Translations under genes and position numbers: made by a program
Notes under the pieces: model-generated
Seen by the model: only the letters and a program-made list of their open reading frames with translations
What the model was told of the DNA's origin: nothing
Database searches by the model: none
NCBI GenBank assembly: GCA_017458065.1
Contig: JAFTGD010000063.1
Span: 1 to 53,370 of the forward strand
Direction: 5' to 3'
DNA: 53,370 nt
Source: Oscillospiraceae bacterium
GTDB taxonomy: Bacteria > Bacillota > Clostridia > Oscillospirales > Oscillospiraceae
In this document: piece after piece, positions 1 through 41,874 of the stretch
Numbering within the stretch: the first letter of the stretch is position 1
How the letters are laid out: each line of letters opens with the position of its first letter

Positions 1-3000
1 GTCATCGTCTCCGGAAAACTCAAAGATCAGGTCATGTCCCCAGTCATCAAGACCGCTCGCGCTCTGCATAAAGCTGGCTTCCATTTCCATACCGAAGTAA
101 TGGTCGATATAAGGATCGGCTTTTATGCTCTGGTTATTTGTAATCGAATACAGTTTTTCTCCGTAGCGGGGATCCAGCGATGAAAGCGGATTTCCTTTAA
201 TATCATGCGTATTGAACTGTGAGTTGTGATAAGTATATTTCGGCGTGAAGTCGGTGATATTACCATCCTCATCCACTGTAACCTCTTTTGCGAGATCGTT
301 AAATGGGAAAAATTGCCCATGATTTCTGTAGTTTTGATAACTGTCAGAACTTGTCGCAAGCTGATTGTAGACCACAAAATCGCCAACACCATATGTCCCG
401 CCACCCGGCATCGGTTTACCAAACCAGATGTCTTCTTCACTGGTAATCAAATGAGCAAAATTCTGCGTGCTGTCATATTCAAAATAGCCCGTCTCGCTGT
501 AGGTGCTGGCAAGGAAGGTATGATTCACTAATGTTTCAGAAGCATATGTACAGTCGGCATACAGCTCGCTCAGATTATGATCGGTATACCCCGTGAAGGC
601 AACATCAGGGTAGCCATTACTACTCAAGTTCTTTTCCAGAAGATCTGAGTAAACCACACTGCCGCTCTTGCTTGTTTGACCTAACACGTTCGTCTGGATC
701 ATATTGTGGAAGTTGCCATTTGAAGTGGATTGTGAGCCTCCCGGATAGTTGATCATTTTTACTGTAACATAACCGGTATGATCGACTGTCTGTACTGTTG
801 ACAGTTCCCCGTCGGCTTCATCATTTGTCATGATAGCAAAATAGAAATCACTCGTAATCGTCGAGTCATTTGCCAGCGCAATCGGGGCAGAACCCAGTTG
901 ATACTCGTTTTGCGGAACCATAAGCATGGCATAATCATAGTAGGGATTATCCCACGCCAGGATGGTGCTGTAATACTCGTTGTAGCGCCGCCCGTTCAGA
1001 TTAATGCCGATCGTGCTGTCAGACAGGAAGTCAGTACCCGAAACCTGTGGGGCGATATACTTTCCGGAATAGTTGTTCTGGAGCTCATAGTAGTAGTTCG
1101 GTATGTTTGTTTCATTGCCGTCCGCATCTGTTGTGTGGTATTCTGTAAAATCCCACAGCATGGTGTTGACCTTGCTGCCAACCCAGGAGATGTTGTCGCC
1201 GCTCATGTACGCTTTGACTAACATTCCGTCATGGTCGATCGCGTAGTATTCGTACTCCAGGGTCTTATCATTCCAGATACGGGTATAAAGAACGACCTGA
1301 TCGCCGTCTTTCACGTCGTAATCAATGGTTCCGTCTTCATTCACTGGGCCGGAAACGCTGACCTTCTTTGCGGTGTAAACCACAAAGTCGTCATCGTTCA
1401 AATTTGACTGCTCGGCAAAGTACATATAGACATACTGGTCATTTTGAGAGTCTGCTTTTGTAAAGAAATTCCCATTGTTGTTAAAGAGGACTCTGCCATT
1501 ACTGCTGAACTTATACTTCCCGCTGTAAGCACCGGTTCCCTCTGTCACAGTAATCTTGCAGCGATCGTCAGGGGCATCCACCAGGGAGATGCCCTTGTCA
1601 CCGGTTCCGGCAGTCTGTGAATCGTCGAAACGTACATATTTCAGCTGATCATTCACCACCGTCGTGATGTAGTACTCGGCAGGTCCGCAGCAGGTGAATG
1701 TCCACATTGAGATGTCGCTGTTCTGCGCGACGAAAACGCGATCTGCCCGGCTTACCGGGTCGATCTTGACCGTAGTGGACTTATTCTTCAAGACAGCTAT
1801 GGATTCGGTTACTTTTGCGCTTCCATCAGAAGGAGTTATCTGGGAATTCGCCGTGCCAACAGTCGACATCATTGCTGAACCAGATGTGTCGTTCACATTC
1901 CAGAGAATACCCAGCGACTGGCCGTCCAAACCATAGGGATCTGAGAGAGTACTGTCATCAGAACCGACTTTTGTCAGGATTAGTTTTGTATTATTATTTT
2001 TCGGCACAGAAGTATTTGTACCTTTCGCCAATTCAAAATAGTTTCCATTTCTGTTCCAATAATAGAATTCTTTGGCACCTTCCTTATGATAAATCACAAA
2101 AGTCTCTGGTGAGCCTTCTGTATGGATTTCAACTGTATACTTGGTCGCCGTTTCTTCTTCGTCGCCAAATTCAAAATAACGAAGATTATTTGTTTCTATT
2201 TTTAGATTAACATATTTTTTGTTTCCCTCTTCGTCAAGTATATAGATGTAGAGACTATTGCTCTGTTCATCCGGTTCTGCTGCTTCAAAATAGAACCTGG
2301 TCGCGGAATCAAGCGTCGTGGTCCTTTGAAACTTCCAAGCGCTGCTCACTAACGTCAATGGATCGGTATAGTAATACCGATTATTTCCATCGTCCGTCGA
2401 GATATAATAGCTTTTCCCGTCAAGTTCCTCAACAGAACCCGCCGTTTCTGCCGAATCAAGCTCAACAATACCGTATACAGAGAAGCCGTCGGTATGAAAT
2501 ACCACCGCTGTCTCAAAGCTGTCCGCAGTACCGCTTTCCGTATCAAGGAGAACAGCACTCGGATTCCCGATTTCGTTTTCTCCGTCACCATCAGCTTTAA
2601 GAAAATGCACAGCCGTCATCTGGCTATCCGGCACATCGGCCAGTTCGACCTTTACCTCTACCGCTCCGGCGGGCTGAATCTCAAGGCCGTCAGACAGGAT
2701 GCTGATGTTAAAAAAGCGTGCAAAAGCGATGTGCTGGTTCTCTTCCAGTACACTCTCAACCTTCGCAATATATTCGTCATAGAGGGATGCAGGCTCTGTG
2801 TCGATTTCAGCGCTCACGCCGTCTTCGTCAGTGATCTTGCCGACGGCTGCCTCTTTGCTATCAGCTTCATCCGACTGAGCAGGTCTGACAATCTCTTCCA
2901 CCGACAATTCCGCATCCAGCGGCAGCTTTGCCGCGGCATTATAGGTCACACTGATCTGATAACTGTTGCCGTCAGAGGCCGAGATGGTTTTCTCCAGCGT

Positions 3001-4893
3001 CGTCATGACGACCCCGTATACCGAGAAGCCTTCAGCCGAGAAAACAACTTCACTCCCCGCCGCAGTCGCCTCTTCGGTGCCCTCCGCGTCTCCGTCAGCA
3101 AGCGTGCCGACAACGGCGTCAATCACCTCGATCTCTTCCCCAAAGTGGAGTGTTTTCACGCTGTCATCCAGCTCGTCCGCCAGCTCGATCTTCACCTCGA
3201 CCGGCGCGGCGGGCTGGATCTCTTCCCCGCCCGCAAGGATCGCAATGTCAAAGAAGCGCGCGAACGAGACCATTTCGTTTTCAATGGTCTCATCTGTCAG
3301 CTGCATGTAGGCCTTGTATTCATCTGAGTCGGCGAGGATCTCTGCCACCGCCAATTCAGCGCTTTCCGGGATGCCGGACTCAGGGCCATAGGTGACCGTG
3401 ATTCTGTAATGATTGCCGTCAGAGGCTAGGACGTTTTTCTCAATTGTCGTCCCAATGAGGACATAGACGGAGAAGCTGTCTGCCTCAAAGGTGACGTCCC
3501 GTTCCCCGGACTCAGTGTTCTCGACCTGGGAGGCTGCGCCCTCGCCGTCCACATGGACCACGACGGTGTCCTCCGACTCAATGACCACGGAGGAGGTCAT
3601 GGTGACACGGATGGGGAGCAGCGGCTGGATCTCCTGTCCCTGACTGTCGAAGAAGCAGATATCGACGGCACAGAGAGTACTGATCTCGGTCTGTACAGCA
3701 TCGGCAGCGGCGTCGAGGATCTCGGCATCATGCACGGGGGCGACAGTCATATAGCTCCAGGCGGGGAAAGCGCCTTCGGGGGCCTCGACATAGACGGCCA
3801 CTTCGGAGGTCTCGCCGTAGAAGCTCTGTGCGGGCATGCTGACGCCGGCGGGCTCTTCGTCCGCCGTTTTATCTGCTTCTGTATTCTCTGTATCCGGCTT
3901 CTCCGTGGGCAGCGCCGAAGGCAGTGCTTCCGGCTCTTCCTCCGGTGCTTCTTCCACTGGCGCGTTGGGGTTCTCCGGCTCTTCAGCTGATATGTCGTTG
4001 TCTCCTGTCCTCTCGGGGACGCCGTCATCCAGCTCCACGACCGTAAAGCACTCCGCGCCATGGACGTGTTCGACGACCTCAATCTCGCCGCAGGTCAGGT
4101 AGGTATTGCCGTTCTGGTCCGTTGTATAGCACGCATCTGTATGAGTGTGCAGGCGGATCTCCTGTTCGTCGCAGATGAGCTCTTTGCGGGTCTCATAGCA
4201 GGCATCGGTGTGGTGGTGAGCATCCTCCCCCTCGGGGATGCCACAGGTCAATTCGTCATGGCTCTCATAGCATTCGTCTGTGTGGTGATGCGCGCCTTCG
4301 CCTTCGGTCATGCCGCAGGTCAGCTCATCGACCCACTGATAGCATTCATCTGTATGAGTATGTCCCGGCTCGGTCACATTGCCGTTCTCATCCAGTTCCG
4401 GTTCGGATTCTTCCAGGCCGCAGTCCAGGTCTCCACGCACTCTGGTATAGCAATCAGCCGTATGTTGATGCCCGTCAGACTCGGGGATGGTGCAGATAAG
4501 ATTGGTGACATGGGTATAGCAATCCGGCGTGTGCTGATGTCCATCAGATTCGGGGATGGTGCATGTGAGGACCTCGTAGGAGGTATAGCAGCTCTCATCG
4601 TGCTCGTGCGTCTCGATCTCCGGAAGCAGGCAGACCAGGTTCCAGTTTTCATCGTAACAGTCGTCATTATGGGTGTGCACAAAGAAACCGGCATAACCCT
4701 CGCCATATTGCGGTTCGGCAGTGCAGGTGAGCACCTTTTTCTGATAAGTTTGGGCAATTCCGATGAGATGAAAGAGCCAGAAAACACCTGCAGTCAGAAG
4801 GACAGCAAGGCACAGAAACAGCGCCACCTGCGCGCCGCGTCTTCGCCGCGCGCGCAGTATGGCTTCCGCCTGTTTTATCGTTGTTCTGGTCAT
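1..4893 (-). CDS. Giant cell-surface protein with Cys/His repeats and fibro-slime-like domain (3' end outside window)
   Basis: An uninterrupted minus-strand frame runs from ATG at 4893 (weak AGGGG ribosome site 7 nt upstream) to the window edge, 1631 codons without a stop. Visible order: short basic N-terminus; one hydrophobic signal/anchor segment at about residues 22-46 following an RARRRR stretch; nine Cys/His repeats at about 52-283; an acidic Pro/Glu-rich linker at about 291-352; three related surface domains at about 355-478, 479-627 and 628-810, each ending in an FSVY-type strand; a long Tyr/Asn/Thr-rich region; and from about 1569 a segment ending in FEFSGDDD at the edge. That last motif is what fibro-slime/PA14-like domains show just before a VWVF strand (family knowledge). 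Large gut clostridial surface proteins of this build usually continue into SpaA/Cna-B repeats and a sortase signal; this part is outside the window and is inferred. Likely role: exported adhesin or matrix-binding protein. Confidence 0.85.
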   Translation of the reverse strand, partial: MTRTTIKQAEAILRARRRRGAQVALFLCLAVLLTAGVFWLFHLIGIAQTYQKKVLTCTAEPQYGEGYAGFFVHTHNDDCYDENWNLVCLLPEIETHEHDESCYTSYEVLTCTIPESDGHQHTPDCYTHVTNLICTIPESDGHQHTADCYTRVRGDLDCGLEESEPELDENGNVTEPGHTHTDECYQWVDELTCGMTEGEGAHHHTDECYESHDELTCGIPEGEDAHHHTDACYETRKELICDEQEIRLHTHTDACYTTDQNGNTYLTCGEIEVVEHVHGAECFTVVELDDGVPERTGDNDISAEEPENPNAPVEEAPEEEPEALPSALPTEKPDTENTEADKTADEEPAGVSMPAQSFYGETSEVAVYVEAPEGAFPAWSYMTVAPVHDAEILDAAADAVQTEISTLCAVDICFFDSQGQEIQPLLPIRVTMTSSVVIESEDTVVVHVDGEGAASQVENTESGERDVTFEADSFSVYVLIGTTIEKNVLASDGNHYRITVTYGPESGIPESAELAVAEILADSDEYKAYMQLTDETIENEMVSFARFFDIAILAGGEEIQPAAPVEVKIELADELDDSVKTLHFGEEIEVIDAVVGTLADGDAEGTEEATAAGSEVVFSAEGFSVYGVVMTTLEKTISASDGNSYQISVTYNAAAKLPLDAELSVEEIVRPAQSDEADSKEAAVGKITDEDGVSAEIDTEPASLYDEYIAKVESVLEENQHIAFARFFNISILSDGLEIQPAGAVEVKVELADVPDSQMTAVHFLKADGDGENEIGNPSAVLLDTESGTADSFETAVVFHTDGFSVYGIVELDSAETAGSVEELDGKSYYISTDDGNNRYYYTDPLTLVSSAWKFQRTTTLDSATRFYFEAAEPDEQSNSLYIYILDEEGNKKYVNLKIETNNLRYFEFGDEEETATKYTVEIHTEGSPETFVIYHKEGAKEFYYWNRNGNYFELAKGTNTSVPKNNNTKLILTKVGSDDSTLSDPYGLDGQSLGILWNVNDTSGSAMMSTVGTANSQITPSDGSAKVTESIAVLKNKSTTVKIDPVSRADRVFVAQNSDISMWTFTCCGPAEYYITTVVNDQLKYVRFDDSQTAGTGDKGISLVDAPDDRCKITVTEGTGAYSGKYKFSSNGRVLFNNNGNFFTKADSQNDQYVYMYFAEQSNLNDDDFVVYTAKKVSVSGPVNEDGTIDYDVKDGDQVVLYTRIWNDKTLEYEYYAIDHDGMLVKAYMSGDNISWVGSKVNTMLWDFTEYHTTDADGNETNIPNYYYELQNNYSGKYIAPQVSGTDFLSDSTIGINLNGRRYNEYYSTILAWDNPYYDYAMLMVPQNEYQLGSAPIALANDSTITSDFYFAIMTNDEADGELSTVQTVDHTGYVTVKMINYPGGSQSTSNGNFHNMIQTNVLGQTSKSGSVVYSDLLEKNLSSNGYPDVAFTGYTDHNLSELYADCTYASETLVNHTFLASTYSETGYFEYDSTQNFAHLITSEEDIWFGKPMPGGGTYGVGDFVVYNQLATSSDSYQNYRNHGQFFPFNDLAKEVTVDEDGNITDFTPKYTYHNSQFNTHDIKGNPLSSLDPRYGEKLYSITNNQSIKADPYIDHYFGMEMEASFMQSASGLDDWGHDLIFEFSGDDD
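2466..3830 (-). repeat. Three tandem related surface domains in the giant surface protein
   Basis: Three units of about 125-180 residues follow each other. Units two and three open with nearly the same stretch (TTIEKNVLASDGNHYRITV against TTLEKTISASDGNSYQISV). Each has an EIQP-x-x-P/A-V-x-V core and closes with FSVYVLI, FSVYGVV or FSVYGIV. The third unit carries an insertion of about 30 residues. They look like stacked beta-sandwich stalk domains, although I cannot name the family with certainty. Confidence 0.7.
4046..4740 (-). repeat. Nine tandem C-x(n)-H-x-H-x4-C-[YF] protein repeats
   Basis: Within the surface protein, residues about 52-283 contain nine modules of the form Cys, 7-19 residues, His-x-His, four residues, Cys-Tyr (Phe in the last). 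The second halves read HTHNDDCY, HEHDESCY, HQHTPDCY, HQHTADCY, HTHTDECY, HHHTDECY, HHHTDACY, HTHTDACY and HVHGAECF. Between modules is a short L-x-C strand that supplies the next first Cys. Two Cys and two His per module could bind a metal or form disulfides; which is not decided by the sequence. Confidence 0.85.
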
Positions 4894-5434
4894 TCGCGTT
4901 GCCCCTGTTCTGACTGCTGACTTTCGGATTATCTGTCGTTTATCGTTTCTCTTTTTTCCCCGCATCACCTTTCACAGGAGGCTTGGCACGGCTGAGACGC
5001 CGGGCCGCGGAGACGGTTTTCACCGGGACGCCTGAGACGCCGCCCCTGCGAGAGAAACACGATGGTTTTCTGTTCTAAAGGGATGATACCTCTTCCGCCG
5101 TCAACAAAGGAATCAATCATTCCTGTTTTTTGCATCGGCAGAGTTTTTTCTTGTTTTCTGCTTGCGGCACCGGTTTTTGTAGTCTGATCCGTCCGCCTGG
5201 ATCCAAGAAAGGCATGTTACACCTATTATTACGCATATCATTTTATGTCAAGAGCGTCTGTTATGTCAATGAAATTCCCTCATCTTACAGTCTGGAAGAG
5301 TTTGAATTTACAGCTTTTTCACAATTGTTTTTGTTTCTTTTATCTTTTTTCATTTTTCTGTTTCCGGACATCATCAAACCTCAGAACGACAGAGCGTTTC
5401 CCCTTTTCTACACCCGGGTGCGTGTAAATATTGC
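4894..5434. other. Intergenic region between the divergent surface-protein gene and hprK
   Basis: About 540 bases without a credible gene. The half next to the surface gene is GC-rich and holds an 11-base direct repeat, CTGAGACGCCG, at 4992-5002 and 5032-5042, plus a small stem with a GAAA loop. If the minus promoter at 5223-5251 is used, this half is its 5' leader. The half next to hprK (about 5210-5400) is AT-rich with pyrimidine tracts and no other structure that I can support. Confidence 0.5.
5223..5251 (-). promoter_or_regulatory. Candidate promoter of the giant surface-protein gene
   Basis: On the minus strand TTGACA (5251-5246) is followed after 17 bases by TAATAG, or after 15 bases by AATAAT. 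It would give a leader of roughly 320 nt before the ATG at 4893. The -35 is perfect, while the -10 is only moderate. Confidence 0.45.
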
Positions 5435-5511: not shown

Positions 5512-6450
5512 ATGCGCAGCAAATATACCGTCCCGCTCAAGACCATTGTGAAGGACATGAACCTGAACATTCTGCACCAGTCGAAGGACTATGACACCGC
5601 GGTCCTGACCATGGCCGACGTCAACCGCCCCGCCATGCAGCTGACCGGCTTTTACAACTACTTCGACCCCAAGCGCCTCCAGGTCATCGGCATCGTGGAG
5701 TCGACCTATCTGGACACCCTGACGCACGAGGAGCGCCTCAAGGCCTTTGACCGCTTCATGGCCTACGACATCGCGGGTCTGGTCATCTGCCACAGGTGCG
5801 AACCCTTCCCCGAGTGCCTGGAGATGGCGGAGAAGTACGACCGCAACGTTTTCTACACTCCCACGGACACCTCGGACTTCCAGGCGAGAGTGATCTTCCT
5901 GCTGCACAACTACCTGGCGCCGCGTCTCACCACCCACGGCGTGCTGGTGGACATCTACGGCGAGGGCGTCCTCCTGATGGGCGACAGCGGCATCGGCAAG
6001 AGCGAGACCGCGCTCGAGCTCATTAAGCGCGGACACCGCCTGGTAGCGGACGACGCGGTGGAGATCAAGCTCATCAGCGAGACCACTCTGGTGGGCTCCG
6101 CCCCGGAGATCATCCGCTATTACATGGAGCTGCGCGGTATCGGCGTCATCAACGTGCGGCATATCTACGGCATCGGCGCCGTGCTCCCCTCCTCCAGCAT
6201 CGACCTCGTCGTGAAGATGGAGCACTGGGTGGACGGCAAGGCCTACGACCGCCTCGGCCTTACCAGTGAGACCGAGGAGATCCTCGGGGTCAAGATCCCG
6301 CGGGTCACCATCCCCGTGACGCCCGGGCGGAACCTCGCCGTGATCCTGGAGCTTGCCGCGATGAACAACCGCCAGAAGAAGACCGGCTACAACGCCGCCG
6401 AGATGCTGGCCGCCGAGCACGACTTCGCCATCGATAACGGCACTTTCTGA
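5512..6450 (+). CDS. hprK: HPr kinase/phosphorylase
   Basis: A bifunctional enzyme that phosphorylates HPr on its regulatory serine with ATP and removes that phosphate, setting carbon catabolite control in Firmicutes. 312 residues, normal for the family. Visible: the N-terminal substrate-like domain; HGVLVDIYG with a conserved His at 142; P-loop GDSGIGKS at 157-164; the acidic ADDAVEI segment after it; and the family signature MELRGIGVINV near 205-215. The start follows AGGAGG at proper spacing. It opens a five-gene plus-strand operon and ends 26 bases before murB. The hprK-murB-rapZ-whiA order is a familiar Clostridia arrangement that links sugar control to wall synthesis and division. No ptsH or ptsI is seen in the window. 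Confidence 0.97.
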   Translation: MRSKYTVPLKTIVKDMNLNILHQSKDYDTAVLTMADVNRPAMQLTGFYNYFDPKRLQVIGIVESTYLDTLTHEERLKAFDRFMAYDIAGLVICHRCEPFPECLEMAEKYDRNVFYTPTDTSDFQARVIFLLHNYLAPRLTTHGVLVDIYGEGVLLMGDSGIGKSETALELIKRGHRLVADDAVEIKLISETTLVGSAPEIIRYYMELRGIGVINVRHIYGIGAVLPSSSIDLVVKMEHWVDGKAYDRLGLTSETEEILGVKIPRVTIPVTPGRNLAVILELAAMNNRQKKTGYNAAEMLAAEHDFAIDNGTF

Positions 6451-6476
6451 CAGGAACAACAAGGAAACGAACGAAC

Positions 6477-7475
6477 ATGGACAATCTCGAACAGGCCATA
6501 CAGGCCGTCAAAGAACAGTTCCCCGGCATGGCGCTGAAGGAGAACGAGCCGATGAAGGCCCACTCCTCCTTCCGCATCGGCGGGCCGGTGCGGGCGCTTG
6601 CGACGCCCTCGGACATCACCAGCCTGACCAGGCTCTGTGACCTCTTAAAGCAGTACCACATTGCCCCCTTCCTTCTGGGCAACGGCACCAACATTCTCTT
6701 TCCCGACGAGGGACTGAGCGATCTTTTCATCGTCAGCACCGAGAAGCTGCAGAAGCTGTTCCTGCTGCCGGACGGCGCCATCTACGCCGAGGCGGGCGTG
6801 TCGCTGGCGCGGCTGGCCGCCTTCGCCCAGGAGAACGGGCTCAAAGGCCTCGAGTTTGCCGGGGGCATCCCCGGGACGCTGGGCGGCGGCTGCATCATGA
6901 ACGCAGGCGCCTACGGCGGCGAGCTCAAAGACGTGGTCGAGAGCGTGGTCTTTCTCTTCATTCCCGACCAGTGCCTCTACGAGCTGCCGAACGCCGACTG
7001 CGCCTTCGCCTACCGGCAGAGCTATTTTCAGAAAACGCCGGGCTGCATCGTCCTCAGCGCCGTACTGCGTCTGGAGCAGGACGACCCGCAGGCCATCGCC
7101 GCAAGGATGCAGGAGCTCTCGGAAAAGCGCCGCTCCAAGCAGCCGCTGGACCTCCCCTCAGCGGGCAGCGCCTTCCGCCGCCCGGAGGGGCACTTTGCCG
7201 CCGCGCTCATTGAGCAGGCGGGGCTGAAGGGCTATACCGTCGGCGGCGCACAGGTCTCAGAGAAGCACGCCGGCTTTGTCGTGAACCGGGGCGAGGCCAC
7301 CTCCCACGATGTCTATGACCTGATGATGCACGTGCGCAACACGGTCTACAAAGAGAGCGGCGTCTTCCTCGAGCCGGAGATCATGATCCTCCCGCCGGAC
7401 TACCGCCTGGAGGACAACGGGCCGCAGGTTCCGCGCAACCGCATCACCGCTGTGTCGGAGCCTGCCGAAGAATAA
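6477..7475 (+). CDS. murB: UDP-N-acetylenolpyruvoylglucosamine reductase
   Basis: An FAD-dependent cytoplasmic enzyme that reduces the enolpyruvyl group of UDP-GlcNAc-enolpyruvate to give UDP-MurNAc, using NADPH, in peptidoglycan precursor synthesis. 332 residues. Visible: the FAD-binding part with SSFRIGGP (30-37), LGNGTN (67-72) and FAGGIPGTLGGG (128-138); the substrate domain with YRQSYFQ near 179-185; the proton-donor serine in PSAGSAFRRP (Ser231); and the C-terminal GVFLEPEIMIL segment with the active-site Glu near 299. The compact form lacks the extra tyrosine loop of the E. coli type, as is usual in Firmicutes. It sits 11 bases before rapZ. Confidence 0.97.
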   Translation: MDNLEQAIQAVKEQFPGMALKENEPMKAHSSFRIGGPVRALATPSDITSLTRLCDLLKQYHIAPFLLGNGTNILFPDEGLSDLFIVSTEKLQKLFLLPDGAIYAEAGVSLARLAAFAQENGLKGLEFAGGIPGTLGGGCIMNAGAYGGELKDVVESVVFLFIPDQCLYELPNADCAFAYRQSYFQKTPGCIVLSAVLRLEQDDPQAIAARMQELSEKRRSKQPLDLPSAGSAFRRPEGHFAAALIEQAGLKGYTVGGAQVSEKHAGFVVNRGEATSHDVYDLMMHVRNTVYKESGVFLEPEIMILPPDYRLEDNGPQVPRNRITAVSEPAEE

Positions 7476-7486
7476 GGAGCAGAACC

Positions 7487-8344
7487 ATGCAATTTCTCAT
7501 CATTACGGGGCTCTCCGGCGCAGGCAAGACCCGCGCCGCCGACGTGTTGGAGGACCTGGACTACTACTGCGTAGACAACCTGCCGGTCGCGCTGATGACG
7601 CGCTTTGCCGAGCTCTGTCTGGACACCCGCGGCCGCTATGAGAAGGTCGCCCTTGTGACGGACATCCGGGACCGGGAGGGCTTCGGCGAGCTGCCCAACA
7701 CCATTGAGGAGTTGCGCAAGATGGACTGCGACGTGCAGATCCTCTACATGGACGCGGACCTGCCGACGCTGGTCCGGCGCTATAAGGAATCCCGCCGCCC
7801 CCACCCCCTCGCGGAAAAGGGCATGAGCACGGAGGACGCCGTGCGCCGGGAGGAGGAGCTGCTCGCGCCCATCAAGCGAAGCGCGGACTTTGTGGTGAAC
7901 AGCTCGACCATGACGCTGGGCGTGCTGCAGAACCGGCTGTATGCGCTCTTCGCCGGCGAGGGGAAGAAGCGCGGCCTCGACGTGACCGTGATGAGCTTTG
8001 GCTTCAAGCACGGCATCCCGCTGGATGCGGACCTGGTCTTCGACGCGCGCTTCCTGCCCAATCCCTTCTATGTGGACGATCTGCGCCCGCTTTCGGGTCT
8101 CGACCGGCCGGTGGCGGAGTTTGTCTTCGGCTATCCACAGACCCGCCTGTTTCTGGAGAAGCTGGAAGAGATGATCGCCTTCCTGCTGCCCTACTACATT
8201 GAGGAAGGGAAGCTCACCCTCACCATCGCCATCGGCTGCACCGGCGGCCGCCACCGCAGCGTGGCCCTCGCCTCGGCCCTGCACCACCATCTGGTCGCCA
8301 ACAACGTCAGTTCCGTCAACATCAACCGGGACATCGACAAGTAA
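7487..8344 (+). CDS. rapZ: RapZ/YvcJ nucleotide-binding protein
   Basis: A P-loop protein of the RapZ family, 285 residues. Walker A is GLSGAGKT at 8-15, at the very N-terminus. The DYYCVDNLP motif follows, and TDIRDRE is the family's next conserved segment. The C-terminal domain ends with the conserved IGCTGGRHRSV motif. In E. coli RapZ guides RNase E to a small RNA controlling glucosamine-6-phosphate synthase. In Gram-positives (YvcJ) it binds ATP and GTP and its target is less clear, so only the family call is firm. A good AGGAG site precedes the ATG. It is separated from whiA by 10 bases, and rapZ-whiA is a widely conserved pair. Confidence 0.95.
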   Translation: MQFLIITGLSGAGKTRAADVLEDLDYYCVDNLPVALMTRFAELCLDTRGRYEKVALVTDIRDREGFGELPNTIEELRKMDCDVQILYMDADLPTLVRRYKESRRPHPLAEKGMSTEDAVRREEELLAPIKRSADFVVNSSTMTLGVLQNRLYALFAGEGKKRGLDVTVMSFGFKHGIPLDADLVFDARFLPNPFYVDDLRPLSGLDRPVAEFVFGYPQTRLFLEKLEEMIAFLLPYYIEEGKLTLTIAIGCTGGRHRSVALASALHHHLVANNVSSVNINRDIDK

Positions 8345-8354
8345 GGAGGCCGAA

Positions 8355-9260
8355 ATGTCCTTTTCCTCCGATACCAAGGCCGAGCTCTGCGAAGGCCGCC
8401 CCGACAAGCGGAGCCTTGCCGTCGCCGTCTGCTACGGCATTCTGCTCTACTGCAACACCTTCCGCACCTCGGAGATTCGTATCATCACCGCCTGCGAGCC
8501 CTTTGCCGAGCAGCTCCCGCGGCTGTTCAAAAAGGCCTTTTCGGTGAGTTTTGACCAGCTGCCCCCCGAGGGCGCCCAGGGGAAGCGGAGCTTCTGCATC
8601 AGCGACACGGGCAAGATCACCCGCATCCTCGAAGCCTTCGGCGTAGGGGACGACGGTCCTCTCTCCCACCACGTCAACCTCAGCATTCTGGAAGATCCCG
8701 GCTGTCCGGAGGCCTTTGTGCGCGGCGCGTTCCTTGCCGGCGGCAGCGTCACCGACCCGGAGAAGCGCTTCCACCTGGAGCTTGCCACCAGCCACCGCAG
8801 CGTCAGCCGCGAGCTCCGCTCCATCCTGCTGGAGATGGATCTGGAGCCGAAAGAAGCCGAACGCGGCGCCCACTCCCTGCTGTATTTCAAAAAGGCCGAT
8901 CAGATCTCGGACTTTCTCGCCCGCATCGGCGCACCCGTCGCCGCGATGAACATTCTGACCGCCAAGGTCGACAAGGAGATGCGCAATACCGTCACCCGGC
9001 AGATCAACTGCGATTCCGCCAACGCCGACAAGACCGTCTCCGCCGCCATCCGGCAGAACGAGGCCATCCGCCGCCTCATCAAGCGCGAGGGTCTCGACGC
9101 GCTGCCGGAGCCGCTGAAGGACGCGGCCCTGCTCCGCCTCGCAAATCCCGAGGCCAGCCTTGCGGATCTGGCGACGCTGTCGAATCCGCCGGTGACCAAG
9201 AGCTGCCTTTCCCACCGTCTGAACAAGATCATCCTTCTCGCCGGAGAGGAGCCAACATGA
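8355..9260 (+). CDS. whiA: DNA-binding protein WhiA
   Basis: WhiA couples an N-terminal LAGLIDADG-like domain that lacks nuclease activity to a C-terminal helix-turn-helix, and affects cell division and chromosome segregation in Firmicutes (sporulation in actinomycetes). 301 residues. The ATG at 8355 is chosen over longer in-frame starts because it has AAGGAGG directly upstream and opens with the family sequence MSFSSDTKAELC. Visible: AFVRGAFLAGGSVTDPEK in the homing-endonuclease-like domain, and the conserved C-terminal part with NCDSANADKTVSAA and the LSHRLNKI helix. Its stop overlaps the dnaE start as ATGA, which implies translational coupling. Confidence 0.96.
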   Translation: MSFSSDTKAELCEGRPDKRSLAVAVCYGILLYCNTFRTSEIRIITACEPFAEQLPRLFKKAFSVSFDQLPPEGAQGKRSFCISDTGKITRILEAFGVGDDGPLSHHVNLSILEDPGCPEAFVRGAFLAGGSVTDPEKRFHLELATSHRSVSRELRSILLEMDLEPKEAERGAHSLLYFKKADQISDFLARIGAPVAAMNILTAKVDKEMRNTVTRQINCDSANADKTVSAAIRQNEAIRRLIKREGLDALPEPLKDAALLRLANPEASLADLATLSNPPVTKSCLSHRLNKIILLAGEEPT

Positions 9261-12200
9261 GCTTTGTCCATCTGCATGTCCATACCGAATACTCGCTGCT
9301 GGACGGTTTCTGCCGCATTGACCAGATCGCCAAAAAGGCGCGGTCGCTCGGCCAGACCGCCATTGCCGTCACCGACCACGGCGTCATGTACGGCGCTGTG
9401 GCGTTTTACCGCGCCTGCATCAAAGAGGGCATCCGCCCCATCATCGGGTGCGAGGTCTACGTCGCGCCGCGCAGCCGCTTCCAGAAGGAGCACGGCATCG
9501 ACAACAACTACTCCCACCTGATCCTGCTCTGCAAGGACGAGACCGGCTACCGCAACCTCTGCGCCCTCGTGAGCGCGGGCTTCACGGACGGCTTTTACAT
9601 CCGACCCCGGATCGACTGGGAGCTGCTGCATGCCCACGCCGAGGGCCTGATCTGCCTCTCCGGCTGTCTTGCGGGCGAGATTCCGCAGGCGCTTCTGAAC
9701 GGGAACACCGACAAGGCCAGATCCCGTGCGCTGAAGCTGAAGGAGCTCTTCGGCGAGGACTTCTTCCTCGAGATCCAGAACCACGGCATCCCCGAGGAGC
9801 AGCGCGTCACCGAGGGCCTGGTCGCCCTCAGCCGCGAGACCGGCATCCCCCTGGTGATGACCAACGACGCCCACTACCTGGAGAAGAGCGACGCCTATTA
9901 CCAGGACGTGCTCATGTGCATCCAGACCGGCAAGACCGTGGACGAACAGAACCGCATGCGCTTTGAGACGCAGGAGTTCTACCTCAAGAGCGAGGCCGAG
10001 ATGCGCAGCCTCTTCCCCGGTCTTGCCGAGGCTGCGGACAACACCGTCGTCATCGCCGAGCGCTGCCATTACGACTTTGAGTTCGGCCACTACCACCTGC
10101 CCCGCTTCCGCCTGCCGAAGGGCGAGACGGACAGTGCCGCCTATCTGCGCAAGCTCTGCGAGCAGGGCTTCGCCGCGCGCTACCCCGGCCGCCCCGAGGT
10201 CCACGAGCAGCTGGACTACGAGCTGGGCGTTATCGAGAAGATGGGCTTTGTGGACTACTTTCTCATCGTGTCGGACTTCATCGGCTACGCCAAGCGCAGC
10301 GGCATCCCCGTCGGCCCCGGGCGCGGCAGCGCGGCCGGCAGCGTCGTCGCCTACTGCCTGTATATCACGGACGTGGACCCGATCAAGTACTCGCTGTTCT
10401 TTGAGCGCTTTCTGAATCCGGAGCGTGTGTCCATGCCGGATATCGACGTGGACTTCTGCGTCAACCGGCGCGGCGAGGTCATCGACTATGTCAACCGTTT
10501 TTACGGCGAGGACCACGTGGCGCAGATCGTCACCTTCGGCACGATGGCGGCCCGTGCCGCCATCCGCGATGTGGGAAGAGTGCTGAACATCAGCTATGCC
10601 GAGACCGACGCCGTGGCCAAACAGGTCCCCACCTCGCTCAACATGACGCTGGACGAGGCTCTGCGCCTCTCCAAACCCCTGAAGGAATTCTACGACACCA
10701 ACGACAAGCTCCGCACCCTCATCGACGTGGCCCGCGCCCTGGAGGGCATGCCGCGCCACGCCTCGACCCACGCGGCCGGCGTTGTCATCACCGAGCGGCC
10801 CGTCAAGGACTACGTCCCCCTTGCGAAGAACGACGAGTCCGTCGTCTGCCAGTACCCCATGACCACGCTGGAGGAGCTGGGCCTGCTGAAGATGGACTTT
10901 CTCGGGCTGCGGAACCTCACCGTCCTCGAGGACGCCGCCCAGCTGGTGCGGCAGAAGGAACCCGGCTTCCGGGTCGAGGAGATCCCGGAGGACGATCCCG
11001 CGGTTTTCGAGATGCTGTCCGCCGGACAGACGGAGGGCGTGTTCCAGCTGGAGAGCGCCGGGATGACCGGCGTCTGTATGAACCTGCACCCCAAAAGCAT
11101 CGAGGACATCACCGCCGTCATCGCCCTCTACCGCCCCGGCCCCATGGACAGCATCCCCCGCTTCATTGAGTGCTCGCAGCACCCGGAGCACGTCACCTAC
11201 AAACACCCCCTGCTCCGCCCGATCCTGGAGGTCACCTACGGCTGCATCGTGTATCAGGAGCAGGTCATCGAGATCTTCCGCCAGCTGGCGGGCTTCTCCC
11301 TCGGTCAGGCGGACATGATCCGCCGCGCCATGAGCAAGAAGAAGCACGCCGTCATCGACGCCGAGCGCGTGGCCTTTGTCCACGGCGATCCGAAGCGCGG
11401 CATCACCGGCGCGGTGGCAAACGGAGTGCCGGAGAATATCGCCAACAGCATCTATGACGAGATCCTGGACTTTGCCAGTTACGCCTTCAACAAAGCCCAT
11501 GCCGTCTGCTACGCCGTCGTCTGCTACCGCACCGCGTATATGAAAAAGCATTATCCCGGCGAGTATATGGCGGCGCTCCTCTCCTCGGTCCTGGACAACG
11601 GCCAGAAGATTGCCGAGTACACCGCCGAGTGCAGAGAGCTGGGTCTGGCCCTGCTGCCCCCGGACGTCAACGAATCCCGCTCGGGCTTCTCGGTTTCGGG
11701 CGGCAACATCCGTTTCGGTCTCGCCGCCATCAAGGGCATCGGCCGCAACGCCGTGGCTCAGCTGGAGGCCGAGCGGCAGAAGAACGGACCCTTCCGCAGC
11801 TTTGAGGACTTCCTCCGCCGGATGAACGGCAAGGACTTTAACCGCCGTGCCGTCGAAAACCTGGCGCGCGCGGGCGGTTTCGACTCCTTCGGTTACAAGC
11901 GCAAGGCGCTGGTCACGGTCGCGGGCAGCATGATCGACAGCATCAGCCGCGAGACCCGCGACAACATTTCCGGCCAGATCGACCTCTTCGGCAGCTGGGA
12001 CGGGAGCAGCACAGAGGAAGAGCCGCCCCAGGACAGCCTCCCCATCCCGGACATGCCCGACTTCACCGCCCGGGAGCGCATGGCCCTGGAGAAAGAGATG
12101 ACCGGTCTCTACCTCAGCGGGCACCCAATGGACGAGTACCGCCAGGCGGTCAAGCGTGTCGGCGCAGTCCCCCTCGGGGCGATCATCGGGGATTTTTCCT

Positions 12201-12757
12201 CCGAGGACGGACCGAAGCGCTTTTCGGACAACCAGCCGGTGACCGTCGCCGGCGTCATCGACTCGCACCGCACCCGCACCACAAAGAACAACTCGCTCAT
12301 GTGCTATGCCCAGCTGGAGGACGACAGCGGCAGCATGGAGCTTATCATCTTCCAGAAGGCACTGGATCTCTGCGGGTCCTACATCGTCGACAACCAGGCC
12401 GTCCTGGTCCGCGGCAAGATCTCGGTCCGCGACGAGAAGGAGGCCCAGATCATGGTGGACTCGCTGCGGCCGCTCTCGGATCTGAACACGCCCGACGCCA
12501 TGCCGGCCGAGCGCAACCCCGTCCAGCCGAAAGCGCCGCCCGCCCCCGACCAGAAGCTCTATATCAAGCTCCCCTCGGAAAACGACCCGGTGCTGAAGCG
12601 CATCACGCTCATCCTCACCATGTTCCCGGGCAACGGTTCGCTGATCATCTGGTGCGAGAAGGAAAAAAAGAAGCTTGGCACCCGCTGCCTGCTGCACGAG
12701 GGTCTGATCCTCGAGCTGCAGGAGCTCCTCGGAGAAGAAAACGTCGTCCTGAAATGA
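9257..12757 (+). CDS. dnaE: DNA polymerase III alpha subunit, DnaE type
   Basis: Replicative polymerase subunit of 1166 residues. Domains in order: PHP domain starting at once (HLHVHTEYSLLDG, with FTDGFYIRPR further on); palm with PGRGSAAGS and the metal-binding PDIDVDF; thumb/fingers with the Lys/Arg-rich YRPGPM and YQEQVI segments; helix-hairpin-helix region near LAAIKGIGRNAV; and C-terminal OB fold (VTVAGVIDSHRTRTTKNN). Low-GC Firmicutes use DnaE beside PolC, so it is probably the DnaE partner, although PolC is not in the window. It overlaps whiA by ATGA and is the last gene of the operon; a hairpin follows at 12760. The strong GC bias makes a very long false frame on the opposite strand. 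Confidence 0.97.
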   Translation: MSFVHLHVHTEYSLLDGFCRIDQIAKKARSLGQTAIAVTDHGVMYGAVAFYRACIKEGIRPIIGCEVYVAPRSRFQKEHGIDNNYSHLILLCKDETGYRNLCALVSAGFTDGFYIRPRIDWELLHAHAEGLICLSGCLAGEIPQALLNGNTDKARSRALKLKELFGEDFFLEIQNHGIPEEQRVTEGLVALSRETGIPLVMTNDAHYLEKSDAYYQDVLMCIQTGKTVDEQNRMRFETQEFYLKSEAEMRSLFPGLAEAADNTVVIAERCHYDFEFGHYHLPRFRLPKGETDSAAYLRKLCEQGFAARYPGRPEVHEQLDYELGVIEKMGFVDYFLIVSDFIGYAKRSGIPVGPGRGSAAGSVVAYCLYITDVDPIKYSLFFERFLNPERVSMPDIDVDFCVNRRGEVIDYVNRFYGEDHVAQIVTFGTMAARAAIRDVGRVLNISYAETDAVAKQVPTSLNMTLDEALRLSKPLKEFYDTNDKLRTLIDVARALEGMPRHASTHAAGVVITERPVKDYVPLAKNDESVVCQYPMTTLEELGLLKMDFLGLRNLTVLEDAAQLVRQKEPGFRVEEIPEDDPAVFEMLSAGQTEGVFQLESAGMTGVCMNLHPKSIEDITAVIALYRPGPMDSIPRFIECSQHPEHVTYKHPLLRPILEVTYGCIVYQEQVIEIFRQLAGFSLGQADMIRRAMSKKKHAVIDAERVAFVHGDPKRGITGAVANGVPENIANSIYDEILDFASYAFNKAHAVCYAVVCYRTAYMKKHYPGEYMAALLSSVLDNGQKIAEYTAECRELGLALLPPDVNESRSGFSVSGGNIRFGLAAIKGIGRNAVAQLEAERQKNGPFRSFEDFLRRMNGKDFNRRAVENLARAGGFDSFGYKRKALVTVAGSMIDSISRETRDNISGQIDLFGSWDGSSTEEEPPQDSLPIPDMPDFTARERMALEKEMTGLYLSGHPMDEYRQAVKRVGAVPLGAIIGDFSSEDGPKRFSDNQPVTVAGVIDSHRTRTTKNNSLMCYAQLEDDSGSMELIIFQKALDLCGSYIVDNQAVLVRGKISVRDEKEAQIMVDSLRPLSDLNTPDAMPAERNPVQPKAPPAPDQKLYIKLPSENDPVLKRITLILTMFPGNGSLIIWCEKEKKKLGTRCLLHEGLILELQELLGEENVVLK

Positions 12758-41696: not shown

Positions 41697-41725
41697 TTGA
41701 CAAACCGGTCGAAATCGACTATATT
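41697..41725 (+). promoter_or_regulatory. Promoter of rplJ-rplL
   Basis: TTGACA at 41697-41702, 17-base spacer, TATATT at 41720-41725. Confidence 0.75.
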
Positions 41726-41731
41726 ATCGGA

Positions 41732-41838
41732 GCGCTCCGAAGACAGCAGGTGGGTTTGCCCGTAAATCCTGCCGAGGACATCAACATCATCTTGATTGTT
41801 TTTGTACCTCTGCGTCTTTTGATGCAGAGGTTTTCTTT
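41732..41838 (+). promoter_or_regulatory. L10-type ribosomal protein leader with attenuator
   Basis: Leader of about 140 nt in front of rplJ. It holds a CAGCAGG...CCTGCCG pairing around 41744-41774 and ends in an intrinsic terminator: ACCTCTGC (41806-41813) with GCAGAGGT (41824-41831) and TTTCTTT. The position and plan fit the L10 leader, in which the L10-L12 complex binds the RNA and favours termination (known for Firmicutes). The RNA match is by eye. Confidence 0.7.
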
Positions 41839-41874
41839 ATGAGCGTGAGTTCAAGTGTGGAGGTGAAATCACAC

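Follow-up and report, generated by a model that had tools for sequence, protein, structure and literature searches.

A nine-module repeat in an exported protein

The window is an entire contig (JAFTGD010000063.1, 53,370 nt, our contig C42 of genome G000) from the assembly GCA_017458065.1 of an Oscillospiraceae bacterium. At its beginning, on the reverse strand, it carries the coding sequence for a large surface protein, P0001 (positions 1–4968, reverse strand), which is open at the contig start, so that 1656 amino acids are visible and the C-terminus is cut off. The N-terminus of P0001 is basic and is followed by the hydrophobic segment of a signal peptide (4753–4836, reverse strand), with a possible cleavage site (identified by eye) after GIA, nine residues ahead of the first Cys. 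Directly after the signal peptide comes the array of nine modules, then a spacer rich in Glu and Pro, and then large domains. Upstream of the gene is a sequence resembling a sigma-70 promoter (5240–5269, reverse strand; 11 of 12 positions match), but this is a pattern match only, and the pattern has three matches in the region when 0.9 would be expected. Farther along (5512–12757) are divergently oriented housekeeping genes, which from the look of their translations we take to be hprK, murB, rapZ, whiA, and dnaE. The sole Rfam match in the window above the gathering thresholds is a ribosomal protein L10 leader (41719–41845).

Each module has the form C1-x(n)-H-x-H-x3-C2-[YF]; we will call the two histidines H1 and H2. 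The whole array spans 4045–4725 and all nine modules are on the reverse strand: module 1 (4654–4725, with 15 residues between C1 and H1), module 2 (4585–4632), module 3 (4516–4563), module 4 (4447–4494), module 5 (4339–4422, with a long loop of 19 residues), module 6 (4267–4317), module 7 (4195–4245), module 8 (4126–4173), and module 9 (4045–4092). Across the nine modules, the C1-H1 loop varies from 7 to 19 residues. When this stretch of 254 amino acids was shuffled 20,000 times, the full module occurred 0.005 times on average and at most once, and H-x-H-x3-C alone, which also occurs nine times in the array, averaged 0.12 occurrences with a maximum of three. From residue 77 onwards, 18 of the 24 visible Cys of P0001 lie inside the array. 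The pattern scan and the shuffles thus confirm the nine-fold C-H-H-C repeat that had been predicted from the sequence of this DNA. The order of Cys, loop, His-x-His, and Cys was also as predicted, but the gap between H2 and C2 is three residues instead of four: scanning with a gap of four found no modules and scanning with a gap of three found all nine. The predicted Cys-Tyr ending holds for modules 1–8, while module 9 ends with Cys-Phe.

The missing end of P0001 may be on another contig of the same genome. Contig C65 begins with the same 106 bases as the window and runs into a reading frame that matches TIGR02148 (E = 3.7e-14). By way of this overlap, positions 1–105 (reverse strand), the cut end of P0001, are probably the start of a fibro-slime or PA14-like domain. 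It is likely, judging by the shared bases, that the window's gene is adjacent to C65 in the genome, but this is unproven because the same 106-mer is also found inside contig C39. The exact 106-base repeat is present in three copies (window 1–106, C65:1–106, and C39:4806–4911); it sits at an assembly break, the start of the window, and is probably within a fibro-slime-type domain.

Similar arrays in other Clostridia

A species-level scan, with one genome per species, found 142 stretches that encode a relative of the array, and we analysed the best 80 of these 142 (loci L044–L123). According to their record titles, these 80 are from Lachnospiraceae, Oscillospiraceae, Ruminococcaceae, and other Clostridia, along with one Atopobiaceae MAG. 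The relatives include isolates (Dorea sp. 5-2, at L077, and Pseudoflavonifractor sp. MSJ-30), and two array loci were found on viral contigs. The loci from the window's genus, the best 80 of 142, and the viral loci together give at least 105 distinct arrays, each with between 3 and 31 cores, mostly from gut Clostridia. This bears out the statement in the original prediction that other surface proteins of gut clostridia carry similar repeats at their N-terminus. Within the genus, 20 of the 61 genomes drawn have a match to the array (E of 0.001 or better). At the level of the class, 5 of 293 genomes match, including the window's own, and at the level of the phylum, only the window's own genome matches (1 of 299); these two counts are lower bounds because the limit was stricter (1e-8, with a three-module profile).

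The window's genome has further arrays on contigs C10, C17, C65, C21, C71, and C18. The three of these array proteins that are complete at the C-terminus finish with a sorting signal (LPATG, LPSTG, or MPETG), and its array proteins match Cna_B, SpaA, CHAP, List_Bact_rpt, PA14, or fibro-slime domains. (At L010, L011, and L014, a CHAP-type amidase domain follows the array; this is a Pfam match in L011 and was recognized by eye in L010 and L014.) More broadly, 99 of 104 arrays have a hydrophobic segment within 90 amino acids ahead of the first HxH (one further array is cut). Among the 70 array ORFs with a visible stop, 51 have an LPxTG-like end by a loose pattern, of which 46 are LPxTG or MPxTG, and 19 lack even a loose LPxTG-like end. 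The combination of a signal peptide and a sorting signal, by which tip or ancillary pilins are recognized, was found across the arrays that we examined, with the C-terminus of the window's protein cut off.

The array had no significant match in the copies of Pfam and NCBIfam that we searched, and a profile of 64 rows had no match among PDB sequences up to E = 1. The structure models of the array (described below) had no confident fold match in the PDB, and we found no description of the module in the literature that we searched. With phmmer, the window's array did hit designed SAKe proteins among the PDB sequences (best E = 1.9e-6), but because the 64-row profile gave no match up to E = 1, we take this as a similarity of composition. 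The array is a real and recurrent repeat that is described nowhere in the sources we searched, and it points to a recurrent domain for which those copies of Pfam and NCBIfam contain no model.

Conservation of the modules

We computed statistics for 1,124 cores from the 105 arrays. The linker from C2 to the next C1 is usually 8 residues, as in 553 of the 896 intervals that contain a single Cys. The loop from C1 to H1 is mostly 7 residues (501 cases) or 4 residues (184 cases), with rare loops of up to 71. The residue after C2 is Tyr in 807 of 1,124 cores and Phe in another 161.

Arrays were selected for having at least three H-x-H-x3-C cores, which favours intact cores. Given C2, a linker, and the next C1, HxH is at -6/-4 in 804 of 830 cases. 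We inspected the other 26 by eye: an HxH is missing from the vicinity in 6, an insertion displaces it in 18 (of 1–2 residues in 14 cases and longer in 4), and 2 were mis-anchored. Given C1 and HxH, C2 follows exactly three residues on in 1,013 of 1,041 cases and four or five residues on in 21 more. C1 is absent from 33 of 1,019 intervals between cores. All four ligands are almost invariant, and to about the same degree; of the remaining core positions that were listed, the aromatic residue following C2 is the only one that is nearly as constant (Tyr 84%, Phe 10%). Loss of Cys or His in close homologues, which the original prediction had named as a sign against it, was seen only as rare exceptions. 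Overall, that prediction is partly supported: its zinc-like site with four ligands, on an exported protein of the wall-anchored type, is supported at the sequence level by the retention of the ligands across relatives.

We also modelled the array with AlphaFold2. Three modules (64 rows) gave a mean pLDDT of 76.6 and a pTM of 0.43, and nine modules (17 rows) gave a mean pLDDT of 85.0 and a pTM of 0.39. In every module of both models, a helical turn of three residues ends at C2, and in 2 of 3 modules of the first model and 6 of 9 of the second, it is followed by a strand of seven or eight residues. In these models, H2 and C2 would be about one helical turn apart, which is a usual spacing for zinc ligands. 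With pTM values of 0.39–0.43, the models do not fix the arrangement from module to module.

Metal ligands or disulfides?

The array proteins are rich in Cys only in the arrays. Cys makes up 8.0% of the residues in 105 arrays (2,205 of 27,584), versus 0.48% elsewhere (571 of 118,951, in 88 proteins with at least 300 amino acids outside the array and with further modules removed). The low content outside the arrays agrees with the tendency of obligate anaerobes to exclude Cys from their exported proteins, as described in one study (PMC12453122).

Could the Cys of the array form disulfides instead of binding metal? C1 might be bonded to C2, or C2 to the next C1, with the His pair serving another purpose such as pH sensing. 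Among 100 complete arrays, 47 are perfect C-HH-C repeats, 96 begin in that register, and 89 end in it. The number of Cys is even in 76 arrays, which fits with pairing; it is odd in the other 24, which counts against the metal reading. Furthermore, the loss of a Cys is usually accompanied by the gain of another: gained Cys are present in 30 of 33 arrays with a loss but in just 20 of 67 arrays without one (Fisher's exact test, 3e-9, which is inflated by related arrays). The link remained after clustering at 55% identity (21 of 23 vs. 16 of 41, 3e-5) and at 50% identity (13 of 13 vs. 5 of 10, 0.007, with one cluster of 69 arrays); clustering at 45% leaves two clusters only, which makes the test uninformative. 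Of the three arrays with uncompensated losses, one (L047) is an artefact, and in the refined counts, a gain is present in 29 of the 31 arrays that show a loss. These matched losses and gains are also compatible with the pairing of Cys. They suggest to us that the gained Cys are lone C1 elements and the lost Cys mark HHC halves, or in other words, that these are split modules. (In L055, L064, L081, L086, L099, and L114, a lone extra Cys is near the start and the HHC half is 9–14 modules on.)

A different comparison bears on the two readings. With the refined tokens, the number of Cys minus twice the number of His pairs, expected to be zero for intact modules, is -1 in 2 of the 100 complete arrays, 0 in 66, and above 0 in 32. 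The two arrays with a deficit (L053 and L065) resemble changes of C1 to Ser. Rare deficits along with common surpluses would be expected if a site requires no fewer than two Cys for each HxH, but simple pairing fails to explain them, as pairing alone would treat a surplus and a deficit alike. Judging from these counts, a metal site fits the pattern better than disulfides do. Disulfides would also leave it unexplained that HxH is as invariant as the Cys are.

The redox enzymes of these bacteria point in both directions. Among the 61 genomes drawn from the genus (24 of which are at least 90% complete, with no more than 5% contamination), we found no VKOR and no DsbB, while the control genomes were positive in 3 of 14 and 6 of 14 cases, respectively. 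Matches to the DSBA family are present in 6 of the 61 genomes: 4 of the 20 genomes with arrays, including the window's, versus 2 of the 41 others, which leans against the metal reading. However, 16 of the 20 array genomes have no DSBA match, and the DSBA proteins at the two loci that we read (L129 and L130, from relatives in the genus) lack a signal peptide. Some clostridia do have DsbA- and VKOR-type enzymes, but the same work reports that exclusion of Cys from exported proteins is the tendency in obligate anaerobes (PMC12453122). Given the ligand conservation, the surplus of Cys, and the lack of VKOR and DsbB among the 61 genomes, we consider disulfide-stapled repeats to be unlikely.

Array genes and pilus operons

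We examined the neighbours of 59 arrays from L044–L125 whose genes have a visible stop; 37 of these have at least 2.5 kb of downstream sequence. A homologue of the sortase on C65 is encoded within 4 kb downstream on the same strand for 33 of the 59, and for 32 of the 37 with enough sequence. (The sortase is absent in 5 of the 37: L045, L053, L082, L093, and L097.) A homologue of signal peptidase I is upstream on the same strand in 41 of 59. In 32 of the 33 cases with a sortase (all but L094), an ORF of 457–666 amino acids with an LPxTG-like end lies between the array gene and the sortase. We tested four of the intervening ORFs, and all four scored above the cut-offs for GramPos_pilinBB (PF16569) and RrgB_K2N_iso_D2.

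This setting is less clear for the window itself. We saw no sortase near the window's closest relatives (L044–L054), but most of these have little downstream DNA (2 kb or less for L046, L044, and others) and just L045 and L053 have over 6 kb. The window's genome has sortases on C65, C77, and C38 only, and six of its seven array contigs, including the window's, have no sortase match. On C65, the order is signal peptidase, array protein, sortase. (Downstream of the sortase on C65, at L131 (G000:C65:11000–20000), are a DUF5979 protein, small secreted proteins, and two signal peptidases. One of the small secreted proteins looks TasA-like by eye and has no Pfam match.) So, the adjacency of a backbone pilin and a sortase was seen for many relatives, but the window's gene has only the end overlap with C65, which carries a sortase, and a pilus setting for the window's own subfamily is weakly indicated.

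In the sortase-assembled pili of the SpaA/RrgB type, as in the operons of many relatives, signal peptidase I, a large LPxTG protein (here, the array protein), a GramPos_pilinBB/RrgB_K2N pilin, and a sortase are encoded together, and several array proteins have Cna_B or SpaA domains. The difference is at the N-terminus. Known pilus tips carry vWA or thioester domains at this position, while the array proteins have tandem C-H-H-C modules without a significant match in Pfam or NCBIfam.

Proposed role of the array

We propose that every module holds a single metal ion, with Zn2+ as the likeliest metal, and that the modules together make up a metal-stapled rod on the outer end of a protein of the pilus-tip type. 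We think that this is somewhat probable. C1, H1, H2, and C2 of a compact module would hold the single ion; the helical turn would end at C2, and the linker, usually of eight residues and often modelled as an extended strand, would reach the next C1. In P0001, nine such modules in series would stand at the N-terminus of the mature protein, which would be anchored by sortase. Sortase attaches proteins by their C-terminal LPxTG, so an N-terminal array would be outermost, and in many relatives, the array gene would occupy the place of the tip protein in a sortase-pilus operon. The rod would hold the remainder of the protein at a distance from the cell, perhaps for adhesion. Metal would replace the stabilizing disulfides or isopeptide bonds, in anaerobes in which we found no DsbB or VKOR. 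A stalk had been among the functions suggested originally, and the operon setting makes that idea more specific.

The original prediction also held that such sites are unusual outside the cells of Firmicutes, but metal-binding repeats on Gram-positive surfaces have precedents in streptococcal Pht proteins (PMC3842936) and staphylococcal Aap (PMC9802226). The modules do not belong to the Pht family: both have repeated metal-ligand motifs at the surface of a Gram-positive cell, but PhtD has an HxxHxH motif with Glu as the fourth ligand (PMC3842936), and our modules have HxH and two Cys instead. The module shares the order C-H-H-C and the H-x3-C spacing with the eukaryotic CHHC zinc finger (of U11-48K, tRNA methyltransferase, and GTSF1). 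That finger, CPX4HX9HX3C, binds one Zn2+, and its family is described as exclusively eukaryotic (PMC9539491). The eukaryotic finger has H-x9-H while the array modules have H-x-H (mostly C-x4-8-H-x-H-x3-C), and the array is bacterial and extracellular, with many modules in a row. Given the difference in spacing and the lack of a Pfam match, we did not assign the array to zf-U11-48K. The G5-E repeats of Aap and SasG are also part of a long surface protein with a zinc-dependent function, but we know of no C-H-H-C module in those proteins.

Alternatively, the modules, whether filled with metal or not, might bind partners at the tip, such as mucin glycans or the array of another cell. The array would be outermost by the same sortase logic, the C1-H1 loops vary in length, and in Aap, zinc mediates homophilic contacts between proteins, making it a zinc-dependent homophilic adhesin (PMC9802226). 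However, the same consensus is found across the lineages that we examined, as would be expected of a scaffold more than of a binding face that diversifies, and we think that a ligand-binding tip is quite unlikely. Sites with two Cys and two His are usually tight and structural, and the frequent neighbours of the array, among the types that we looked for, are signal peptidase, backbone pilin, and sortase; so despite the presence of up to 31 cores in one protein, it is very unlikely that the array is a scavenger or sensor, with the modules serving as a surface store of zinc or another metal that feeds an importer and not as a structural rod. A model for such a store would be PhtD, a repeated Zn2+ binder at the surface that passes zinc to AdcAII (PMC3842936).

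If the metal-stapled rod is correct, then a dense array of Cys and His on proteins of the pilus-tip type would be a third route to rigidity, beside disulfides and isopeptide bonds. Such a fibre would depend on zinc in the gut, which is altered by the host and by diet. We also speculate, though we consider this stronger version doubtful, that the arrays are a new kind of extracellular, zinc-finger-like tandem repeat that forms the outermost rod of sortase pili, with each module folded by zinc and not by a disulfide or an isopeptide bond, so that tips would stiffen or collapse with the supply of zinc. The split modules might then be lassos that are closed by zinc. In the 29 of 100 arrays with both lost and gained Cys, the putative C1 and HHC halves are up to 17 modules apart, and zinc that joined the two halves would close a loop of modules at the tip.

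A few arrays from the genus have a different register. L025, L026, and L028 have four modules each, in the order HHCC: they start with HxH-x3-C without a C1 and end with a lone C1, and so the fourth ligand may differ in these proteins.
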